From Streptacidiphilus sp. ASG 303 (lineage in GTDB: Bacteria; Actinomycetota; Actinomycetes; Streptomycetales; Streptomycetaceae): DNA of 64,000 bases. Below the pieces are notes generated by a model that searched no databases, was not told the origin of the DNA, and saw nothing but the letters and a program-made list of their open reading frames with translations. Both the position numbers and the translations under genes were made by a program. The stretch spans positions 1-64,000 of the forward strand of contig NZ_JAJLRA010000003.1 of assembly GCF_020991365.1 (NCBI RefSeq), written 5' to 3'. Shown here in pieces: positions 22,470-25,702 of the stretch; position 1 is the first letter of the stretch; the number at the start of each line of letters is the position of its first letter.

Positions 22470-22499
22470 TTGACATCCGGCGGGCCTCCGGGGTCTCCT
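22470..22499 (+). promoter_or_regulatory. Promoter of cysteine leader peptide
   Basis: Consensus -35 TTGACA at 22470-22475, 18 nt, then TCTCCT at 22494-22499, exactly 7 nt before the ATG of the leader peptide. This predicts transcription starting at or next to the ATG, that is, a leaderless leader-peptide mRNA. Confidence 0.55.
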
Positions 22500-22506
22500 T
22501 GGCCCC

Positions 22507-22596
22507 ATGTCCGCGCGCCTCGCCCACCGGAGCCTCCACGTCGAGCTCCGCCGTGCCGCCAGCGCGCTCTGTTGTCCTCGCACCCGCCGTCCGTAG
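22507..22596 (+). CDS. 29-residue leader peptide with tandem Cys codons
   Basis: The small frame encodes MSARLAHRSLHVELRRAA then SALCC and a short basic end. It contains the HV(D/E)LxRxASxLC pattern of actinobacterial putative leader peptides found ahead of sulfur and cysteine genes. Cys22 and Cys23 are both encoded by TGT, the rare Cys codon in such a genome. It is followed at once by a 7-bp hairpin starting in the stop codon, and by the cysteine dioxygenase gene 121 nt further. I infer cysteine-responsive attenuation by ribosome stalling, as described for polycysteine leaders in mycobacteria. Confidence 0.75.
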   Translation: MSARLAHRSLHVELRRAASALCCPRTRRP

Positions 22597-22615
22597 CGCC
22601 CGCTCCGCCGGGCGC
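22596..22615 (+). promoter_or_regulatory. Candidate attenuator hairpin after leader peptide
   Basis: GCGCCCG, a 6-nt loop and CGGGCGC form a perfect 7-bp stem that begins at the last base of the leader stop codon. A ribosome stalled at the Cys codons would leave it free, while one at the stop would mask it. Whether this is an anti-antiterminator or the attenuator itself is not resolved. Confidence 0.5.
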
Positions 22616-22717
22616 CGGCACGCACCCCAGGCCCCTGCCCCCCGCGCGCCCGGCCCTGCGGCCCGAGCACCGCCTCCCGCTCCCGGCCCGCGCGCACGCC
22701 TCCGCGAGGACCCACCC

Positions 22718-23374
22718 GTGCACCGCACCCCCGAGCACCCCGCCGCCCGTCCCACCGCGCCCGCGCCCCGCTGGTCCGACGGCCTCAGCGACCTCTCCGT
22801 CGCCGGCGACCCCCTGGCCTTCCCGCACCTCGCCGTGGACGCCGCGCCCGCCGGGCCGGCCACCGTCGCCGACTTCGCCGCGCTGGTCCGCGGGACCGCC
22901 GCCGACCGCGGCCGCTGGGAGCCGCTGGTCCGCTACGACGCCCTCACCCGCTGGTACGCCCGGCTGGCGACCGGCCCCGGCCACGAGGTGTGGCTGCTGA
23001 GCTGGCTGCCCGGCCAGTCCAGCGGGCTGCACGACCACGGCGCCTCGCTCGGCGTGATGACCGTGGTCCGCGGCGAGCTGGCCGAGCGCTCGCGGGACCG
23101 CTCCGGCGAGCGCTCCCGCACCCTGCGGCCCGGCACGGTCCGCGTCCTGCCGGGCCGCCCGGCGCACGGCGGCGCCGGGGCCGGGCGGGCCGGCGGCACC
23201 GGGGCCGTCCACGAGGTGGTCAACGCCTCCCTGGAGCCCGCCGTGAGCATCCACGTCTACGCACCCGGCCTGGTGGAGATGAACCGGCACCGGCCGTCCG
23301 CGGAGCCCGTGCGGCCCCCCGCGCGGCTGCCCGCCGGCGGCCCGCCCGGGCCCGGCGTGTACGAGGGCGCCTGA
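22718..23374 (+). CDS. Cysteine dioxygenase family protein
   Basis: 218 residues from GTG, preceded by GAGGA 7 nt upstream. A cupin fold with the three-His iron site is seen: His105 and His107 in GLHDHGAS and His165 in VHEVVN, with flanking WLPGQSSG and VRVLPGRPAH. Cysteine dioxygenase adds O2 to the thiol of cysteine to give cysteine sulfinate, lowering free cysteine. The upstream leader peptide with Cys codons supports control by cysteine supply. 3-Mercaptopropionate dioxygenase activity is a possible alternative. The last 30 residues are Pro/Gly-rich. fbiA begins 34 nt downstream. Confidence 0.85.
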   Translation: MHRTPEHPAARPTAPAPRWSDGLSDLSVAGDPLAFPHLAVDAAPAGPATVADFAALVRGTAADRGRWEPLVRYDALTRWYARLATGPGHEVWLLSWLPGQSSGLHDHGASLGVMTVVRGELAERSRDRSGERSRTLRPGTVRVLPGRPAHGGAGAGRAGGTGAVHEVVNASLEPAVSIHVYAPGLVEMNRHRPSAEPVRPPARLPAGGPPGPGVYEGA

Positions 23375-23408: not shown

Positions 23409-24392
23409 ATGCGCATCGTGGCACTGGCCGGAGGGATCGGAGGGGCGCGCTTCCTGCGCGGCCTCAAGGAAGCCGTCGCCCCCGGCGGCGACCCGTCCCC
23501 GTCCGCTCCCGCCGAGATCACCGTCGTCGGCAACACCGGCGACGACATCCACCTCTTCGGACTGAAGGTCTGCCCCGACCTCGACACCGTGATGTACACC
23601 CTCGGCGGGGGCATCCACGAGGAGCAGGGCTGGGGCCGGGCCGACGAGACCTGGTCCGTGAAGGAGGAGCTGAAGGCGTACGGCGTCGGGCCCGACTGGT
23701 TCGGCCTGGGCGACCGCGACGTGGCCACCCACGTCGTCCGCACCCAGATGCTCGCCGCCGGCTACCCGCTGAGCGCGGTCACCGAGGCGCTGTGCGCCCG
23801 CTGGCGGCCGGGCGTGCGCCTGCTCCCGATGTCCGACGACCGGGTCGAGACCCACGTCCTCGTCGAGGACGCCGAGGGCCGCCGCGCCGTGCACTTCCAG
23901 GAGTACTGGGTGCGGCTGCGGGCCGAGGTCCCGGCGCTCGCGGTGGTCCCGGTCGGCGCCGAGGACGCCAAGCCCGCGCCGGGCGTGCTGGAGGCGATCG
24001 CGGAGGCCGACGTCATCCTGCTGCCGCCGTCCAACCCGGTGGTCAGCGTCGGCACGATCCTCGCCGTCCCCGGGGTCCGGCAGGCCGTCGCGGAGGCGGA
24101 CGCGCCCGTGGTCGGCCTCTCCCCCATCGTCGGCGGCGCCCCCGTGCGCGGCATGGCCGACAAGGTGCTGGCGGCCGTCGGCGTGGAGTCGACCGCCGAG
24201 GCGGTGGCCCGGCACTACGGGCCCGGGCTGCTGGACGGCTGGCTGGTGGACACCTCGGACGCGGACGCGGTGCCCGGCGTGGAGGCGGCCGGCATCGCCT
24301 GCCGGGCGGTGCCGCTGATGATGACCGACACGGCGGCCGCCGCCGCCATGGCCCGGGCCGCCCTGGACCTCGCCGAGGAGGTGCGCGGATGA
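23409..24392 (+). CDS. fbiA: 2-phospho-L-lactate (PEP) transferase, CofD/FbiA
   Basis: 327 residues from ATG ([16 protein letters not shown]). It joins the deazaflavin Fo to a phosphoenolpyruvyl or lactyl phosphate group in coenzyme F420 synthesis. Family features are the N-terminal [15 protein letters not shown], the [22 protein letters not shown] segment, and [13 protein letters not shown] followed by LSPIVGG. Its stop overlaps the fbiB start in the ATGA manner, so the two are translated together. It may be read from the cysteine dioxygenase transcript. Confidence 0.96.
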
Positions 24393-25702
24393 CCGGCTAC
24401 ACGGTCCTGCCCCTCCCCGGCGTCCCCGAGGTGGCCCCCGGCGACGACCTCGCCGCCCTGGTCGCCGCCGCGGCCGCCGCGGAGGGCGGTCCGGGCCTGC
24501 GCGACGGCGACGTGCTGCTGGTCACCTCCAAGGTCGTCAGCAAGGCCGAGGGCCGGGTCGTGGCGGCCGCCGACCGCGAGGCGGCGATCGACGCCGAGAC
24601 CGTCCGCACCGTGGCCCGGCGCGGCCGCACCCGCATCGTCGAGAACCGGCAGGGCCTGGTGATGGCCGCCGCCGGGGTGGACGCCTCCAACACCGCCCCC
24701 GGCACCGTGCTGCTGCTGCCCGAGGACCCGGACGCCTCCGCCCGCGCCCTGCGCGCCCGGCTGCGCGCGCTGACCGGCGCGGACGTCGCCGTCGTCGTCA
24801 CCGACACCGCCGGCCGGCCCTGGCGCAACGGCCTCACCGACATCGCGATCGGCGCCGCCGGGGTCGCCGTCCTCGACGACCACCGCGGCCGCACCGACAG
24901 CCACGGCAACGAGCTGGCCGTCACCGTCACCGCCACCGCCGACGAGCTGGCCGCCGCCGGGGACCTCGCCAAGGGCAAGACCTCCGGCACGCCCGTCGCG
25001 GTCGTCCGCGGACTGGCCGGCGTCGCCACCGCCGAGGACGGGCCCGGCGCCCGCGCGCTGATCCGGCCCGCCGCCGACGACATGTTCCGCCTCGGCACCT
25101 CCGAGGCGCTGCGCGAGGCGGTCACCCTGCGCCGCACCGTGCGGCGGTTCACCGGCGAGCCGGTGGACGGCGGGGCCGTGCGCCGCGCGGTGGCCGCCGC
25201 GGTCACCGCGCCCGCGCCGCACCACACCACGCCCTGGCGGTTCGTGCTGCTGGAGACCGAGGCGGCCCGCACCAAGCTCCTCGACGCGATGCTCGACGCC
25301 TGGCGCACCGACCTGCGGGAGATCGACGGCTGGGACGAGGAGCGGATCGCCCGCCGCACCCGCCGCGGCGACGTGCTGCGGGACGCCCCCTACCTGGTGG
25401 TGCCCTGCCTGGTCGCGGACGGCGCCCACGCCTACCCGGACCCGCGGCGCAGCGCCGCCGAGCGGGAGATGTTCGTGGTCGCGATGGGCGCCGCGGTGCA
25501 GAACCTGCTGGTGGCGCTGGCCGGCGAGGGCTACGGCTCGGCGTGGGTGTCGTCCACCATGTTCTGCCGGCCGACGGTCCGCGGGGCGCTCTCGCTGCCG
25601 GACGGCTGGGACGCCATGGGCGCGGTCGCGGTCGGCCGGCCGGCCGAGGCCCCCGCGGTCCGGCCCGCCCGGCCGGCGGACGCCTTCGTCGAGGTCCGCT
25701 GA
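24389..25702 (+). CDS. fbiB: Coenzyme F420 gamma-glutamyl ligase/reductase FbiB
   Basis: 437 residues from the ATG that overlaps the fbiA stop. Two domains: the N-terminal glutamate ligase (about 1-245; [53 protein letters not shown]) and a C-terminal nitroreductase-type FMN domain (about 250-437; [26 protein letters not shown]). It adds the glutamate tail and reduces dehydro-F420-0, giving mature F420. This full-length two-domain form is the actinobacterial one. It ends in a convergent region with strong hairpins. Confidence 0.96.

Follow-up and report, generated by a model that had tools for sequence, protein, structure and literature searches.

In Streptacidiphilus sp. ASG 303, a gene for cysteine dioxygenase (cdo) lies downstream of a short open reading frame with two adjacent cysteine codons, which raises the question of whether this frame acts as a cysteine-sensing leader and, if so, whether the gene would be switched on by an excess or by a shortage of cysteine. 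The window examined here, the whole stretch of 64,000 nucleotides from this strain, had received a first-pass annotation in which a cysteine attenuator was proposed ahead of cdo. All of the elements noted there, namely TTGACA, the 18-nt spacing, the weak -10, the 29-codon frame, TGT TGT, the letters of a hairpin, the GTG, and GAGGA, were confirmed to the base. Of the attenuator itself, the Cys-codon leader, its leaderless geometry, its mycobacteria-like kind, and its placement to control cdo are upheld by the analysis below, whereas the sign of the response and the role given to the hairpin are not.

Organization of the cdo Locus

The features of the locus, including the Shine-Dalgarno (SD) region of cdo, are as follows.

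22470 to 22475, + strand: -35 element TTGACA, with the 36-37 nt spacing conserved in cdo leaders
22494 to 22499, + strand: weak -10-like box TCTCCT in the context GGTCTCCTTG, conserved in two other genus members
22507 to 22596, + strand: leader peptide ORF of 29 codons, MSARLAHRSLHVELRRAASALCCPRTRRP and a stop codon, conserved in the genus and before actinobacterial cdo genes
22570 to 22575, + strand: tandem Cys codons TGT TGT (codons 22-23), predicted stall site
22574 to 22581, + strand: anti-SD segment GTCCTCGC (RNA GUCCUCGC), codons 23-25, predicted to pair with 22704-22711
22596 to 22615, + strand: 7-bp hairpin at the leader stop codon, probably not the functional element in this genus
22704 to 22711, + strand: cdo SD region GCGAGGAC, core GAGGA at 22706-22710, predicted to be sequestered by the Cys-codon segment
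22718 to 23374, + strand: cdo, cysteine dioxygenase type I, 218 aa, GTG start, PF05995
23409 to 24392, + strand: fbiA/cofD, PF01933, 34 nt 3' of cdo
24389 to 25702, + strand: fbiB, F420 ligase and nitroreductase domains

The -35 element and the -10-like box, both conserved in two other genus members, are separated by 18 nt, with a further 7 nt between the latter and the ATG at 22507. Of 74 dereplicated cdo leaders, most have a TTGAC whose first base lies 36-37 nt ahead of the start codon. A simple consensus sigma-70 scan of the window did not call the leader promoter because its -10 lacks an A at position 2. The GGTCTCCTTG context, at -16 to -6 from the leader start, is itself conserved in most cdo leaders despite lacking the TAnnnT consensus. 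Judged from the sequence, the 5' end of the transcript probably coincides with the leader ATG, and translation of the frame would be leaderless.

The leader stop codon and the cdo GTG at 22718 are 121 nt apart, and a divergent whiB gene adjoins the leader-cdo unit upstream. The order whiB / leader-cdo-cofD-fbiB is common to most of the Streptomycetaceae loci fetched, while Yinghuangia (L021) has the order leader-cdo-rhodanese-cofD-fbiB. Based on the 34-nt gap and the conserved gene order, it is plausible that cdo and fbiA/fbiB share one transcript.

Conservation and Codon Usage of the Leader

A strict leader was defined as TTGAC located 34-38 nt before an ATG or GTG that opens a frame of 15-55 codons with at least two Cys among the last 13 residues. 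This arrangement occurs in 132 of 150 actinobacterial cdo upstream regions, compared with 2 of 3000 dinucleotide shuffles; it was absent from 472 kb of flanking DNA, and on both strands of the window it was matched by the ORF at 22507-22596 alone. Some of the 18 regions failing the rule (L012, L019, and 16 others) are of a single-Cys type. The cysteine codons are themselves unusual, with TGT:TGC counts of 240:81 in the leaders against 2:87 in the genes of the window, and the first Cys codon of the tail is TGT in 67 of the 74 dereplicated leaders.

Across the three Streptacidiphilus genomes compared, a frame of 30 codons, stop included, is common to all without indels, and the differences within core codons 8-25 are synonymous except at one codon, while the spacer has drifted. 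Among 35 distinct versions of the motif, third-position variation is 0.47 compared with 0.23 at first and second positions. The check that the first-pass annotation had proposed, codon-level conservation among relatives, came out in favor of the frame and its Cys codons and against the hairpin within the genus. In the other two genus members the leader has the C-terminal sequence CCPR(A/S)CCL. At 22585-22593 the window reads CGC CGT CCG (RRP), where both relatives have TGC TGT CTG (CCL), so two of four Cys codons have seemingly been lost in the window.

A graded series connects the HVELRRAASALCC leader of the window with leaders of related genera ending in ...ASALCCRCS, ...CRLCSCCI, and ...QARCCCSSC; many cdo leaders have lost the conserved motif while keeping and multiplying the Cys codons, and some have a single Cys codon. 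Beyond the family, leaders of the ASALC type are found ahead of cdo at loci of Pseudonocardiales and Thermomonospora, and most of the checked genomes with the mycobacterial Ms5788A-like leader have cdo after short frames that, from the frames alone, end in ...CCR with tandem Cys including at least one TGT. Within the window leader, a second helix (22513-22567) lies just upstream of the Cys codons, its stem kept in both genus relatives, where a change of codon 3 from GCG to GTG is matched by a change of codon 20 from GCG to GCA.

Predicted Pairing Between the Cysteine Codons and the SD Region

The Cys-codon segment GTCCTCGC is perfectly complementary to GCGAGGAC, the SD region of cdo. Folding of the RNA from the leader to cdo, a method whose results are uncertain for GC-rich RNA such as this, predicts pairing of GUCCUCGC with GCGAGGAC at a probability of 0.98-1.00. 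The same helix is predicted in G002, a G-U replacing one of its end pairs (0.84-1.00), and in G001, where a pair gained at each end makes up for a single internal mismatch and brings the total to nine pairs (0.60-0.69). In all three genus genomes folded, the SD is placed on codons 23-25 although the spacer has diverged, and among synonymous recodings of the leader an 8-bp match to the SD arises in only 0.4%.

RNAalifold, run on the separate g7 lineage, returns a helix between Cys tract and SD unprompted; one column is compensatory (C-G in 5 of 12 sequences, U-A in 7), and 95% of the cells of the helix are paired compared with 27-55% in slid controls, sliding of the partner destroying the helix. 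A second, separate paired change distinguishes L015 (TGTTCC/GGAAC) from L017 (TGTCCC/GGGAC). Over all lineages, the tail and SD of one locus form stronger duplexes than do swapped combinations, a strength equalled in 14 of 20000 permutations, and control segments showed no excess of duplex strength in the same test. Outside the Kitasatospora-like group, GTTCC tails accompany GGAAC SDs (Fisher p 2.4e-5, uncorrected for relatedness); among phylogenetically independent pairs, 6 were concordant and 2 discordant (p 0.14, not significant). A stricter contiguous-helix swap test over all lineages gave a weak signal (z 1.9), and RNAalifold of the g3 lineage returned an intra-leader hairpin only, with no covariation. 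When a ribosome footprint was masked at the first tail Cys, predicted SD accessibility rose in 20 loci and fell in 9 (p 0.007), and in the window it rose from 0.00 to about 0.2-0.3.

As modelled, pairing of the Cys tract with the SD is not universal among cdo leaders. In the Kitasatospora-like group the partner of the tract is instead a spacer element directly ahead of GAGGCCG (own versus swapped, 4 of 20000); this pairing encloses a stop-codon hairpin with compensatory changes, and SD accessibility in this group is unchanged in the masking model. The importance that the first-pass annotation had given to the hairpin of the window is not borne out: the perfect inverted repeat GCGCCCG/CGGGCGC (22596-22602 / 22609-22615) does not exceed shuffles in stability (z +0.67), and the 7-bp stem is not conserved as such in G001 or G002. 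For these reasons, and for want of a U-tract, the hairpin was also rejected as a terminator; the spacer between leader and cdo holds no combination of hairpin and U-tract typical of intrinsic terminators, and a search of Rfam gave chance-level matches only.

Proposed Mechanism and Alternative Explanations

Rather probably, the element is a translational attenuator in which ribosomes on the leader sense cysteine and which turns cdo on under cysteine limitation. With plentiful Cys-tRNA, the ribosome would clear the leader, GUCCUCGC would pair with GCGAGGAC, and the SD of cdo would be hidden. With scarce Cys-tRNA, the ribosome would wait with codon 22 in the A site and its footprint over codons 23-25, the helix could not form, and the freed SD would allow cdo to be translated. 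We infer the stall at codon 22 and the switch from this arrangement: since a ribosome stalled there would sit on the anti-SD segment, a shortage of Cys-tRNA is expected to switch cdo on. The earlier expectation that high cysteine raises cdo is therefore unsupported, the Cys codons pairing with the cdo SD and predicting induction by scarcity; the predicted sign would be the opposite one and the same as in the mycobacterial biosynthetic cases. Leaders of the g7 group (L104, L107-L109, L113, L116, L119, L121, L129, L135, L156, L157) have a further conserved Cys some 8 codons ahead of the tail. Ribosomes held at this earlier position would not cover the anti-SD, and the response to severe starvation could then differ.

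That the same leader works with the opposite sign, abundant cysteine inducing cdo through a pause at the stop codon or an alternative structure downstream, is unlikely, yet it deserves the most weight among the alternatives. Such a sign would suit a catabolic enzyme, and in the masking model the SD is likewise exposed by a footprint on the stop codon (p 0.014); however, the predicted stall site sits on the anti-SD segment itself, and other members of the genus do not keep the hairpin at the stop codon. Published transcript data point both ways. The cdo1 and cdo2 mRNAs of Streptomyces SCUT-3 rise 50- and 8-fold on cysteine-rich feather keratin (PMC7181669), which favors induction by cysteine, whereas in strain KKT two cdo genes show almost no expression up to 48 h and are raised at 96 h along with the sulfate-assimilation genes cysD/cysNC/cysC/cysH (PMC12763843), which speaks against it. 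These Streptomyces data are mixed and confounded, and a literature search, with Canestrari et al. 2020 outside its scope, found no cysteine-controlled actinobacterial cdo.

Transcription attenuation, in which the stall would determine whether RNA polymerase reads through the 121-nt spacer or terminates there, intrinsically or with Rho, is classic for amino-acid leaders, including those of Streptomyces (PMC8079986), and would agree with the strongly varying cdo mRNA levels of other strains (PMC7181669, PMC12763843) and with the conserved spacer structures of the Kitasatospora-like group. Given a spacer without a U-tract terminator and a Cys tract that pairs with the SD in the genus and the g7 lineage, it appears improbable as the main mechanism; Rho-dependent polarity following SD occlusion is possible as a secondary effect. 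Nascent-chain arrest by the peptide motif HVxLRRxASALC, sensing something other than Cys-tRNA, could account for the conservation of residues upstream of Cys with third positions free and for the leaders with a single Cys codon, but it is very improbable in view of the many cdo leaders that lost the motif and kept and multiplied their Cys codons. A chance ORF without function, suggested by the shortness of the frame and its score below the NCBIfam cut-off, is scarcely credible, being contradicted by the conservation statistics (132/150 against 2/3000, and the third-position variation).

The Enzyme and Its Possible Role

The identification of the downstream gene as a cysteine dioxygenase, claimed previously, is supported by the match to PF05995 (CDO_I, E 9e-18). 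Reading of the sequence and alignment with 8qfl place the ligands and residues at HDH, VHEVV, SIHVY, and TRWY, corresponding to the type I pattern of cupin HxH...H ligands, SxHxY residues, and a substrate-carboxylate Arg, whose equivalence was judged by eye and is no proof of substrate. Since Cdo appears to be a conventional Arg-type cysteine dioxygenase, the predicted sign is physiologically odd, and it conflicts with simple metabolic logic for a cysteine-consuming enzyme.

The gene was found in all 298 genomes searched of the family Streptomycetaceae, and in many relatives a rhodanese adjoins it. The genome of strain ASG 303 holds a second cdo (L002, G000:C88:67954), about 40% identical and followed by a rhodanese, with a GTG-started Cys leader, VGLLGIRLFRRTHLDTVRYVGCLCCRCAV and a stop codon, that is conserved in two other genus members (L046, L047). 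Four further leader-like frames of the form HxDLxRxxSAxC (L048-L051) were returned by one pattern search of this genome, the reversed pattern giving 0. It may be speculated that Cdo and rhodanese together yield sulfite for re-assimilation, which could explain the odd sign. On a broader and more tentative view, held with some doubt, actinobacterial Cdo would be a sulfur-salvage enzyme in a cysteine-starvation network with a biosynthesis-like sign, whose leader has switched between two RNA architectures, the Cys tract lying on the SD in one and on a spacer element in the other, with the Cys codons kept.

Comparison with Known Systems

In mycobacteria, the SD is reportedly hidden unless a ribosome occupies the Cys codons, as is said of the work of Canestrari et al. 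2020 (Mol Microbiol 114:93). The polycysteine leaderless short ORFs of these bacteria were first noted in PMC4633059, and their mechanism is cited as translation attenuation in PMC13236596. An attenuator of this kind before cdo would extend cysteine-codon attenuation to a catabolic gene family, with an exact base-pairing switch that can be mutated, and whether it is an excess or a shortage of cysteine that turns cdo on, the outcome would be informative on the role of actinobacterial Cdo.

Several other leader families resemble the present one in part. The window leader has the xVxLRRxASAxC core of NCBIfam NF042934 (cis_reg_atten, 'putative leader peptide') and scores 14.5 bits, under the cut-off of 27; the cdo leader of Streptomyces specialis (L037) passes the same cut-off at 30.7, and the poly-Cys cdo leaders tested against this family received no score. 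These results suggest that current family models overlook many leaders of the poly-Cys type. The uORFC-8-2 motif before cysS in Rhodobacterales also comprises a uORF with tandem Cys codons but differs in having an intrinsic terminator, another phylum, and a tRNA synthetase target (PMC8632094). Streptomyces leuL, trpL, ilvL, and metL are likewise short, mostly leaderless frames with regulatory codons, although for other amino acids, and no cysteine or cdo case is listed among them (PMC8079986). The metL of S. lividans, located before metNIQ and listed as methionine-dependent, ends in RCMCRRMCAF with three Cys codons (PMC8079986) and may belong to the cysteine leaders.

The closest likeness is to the mycobacterial polycysteine attenuators, with which the window leader shares a promoter spacing suited to a leaderless start, the short frame, Cys codons near the stop, a sulfur gene downstream, and a Cys-codon region able to sequester the ribosome-binding site of the next gene, here as predicted in the window and two relatives. 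Unlike in those systems, the target is a cysteine-consuming enzyme, and the peptide falls below the cut-offs of both mycobacterial models, NF042933 (Ms5788A, 45 bits, no match reported) and NF042936 (Ms4527A), the sequences diverging strongly. Judged from its sequence-level features, the window leader appears to work like the mycobacterial polycysteine attenuators, its catabolic target being the unusual part.
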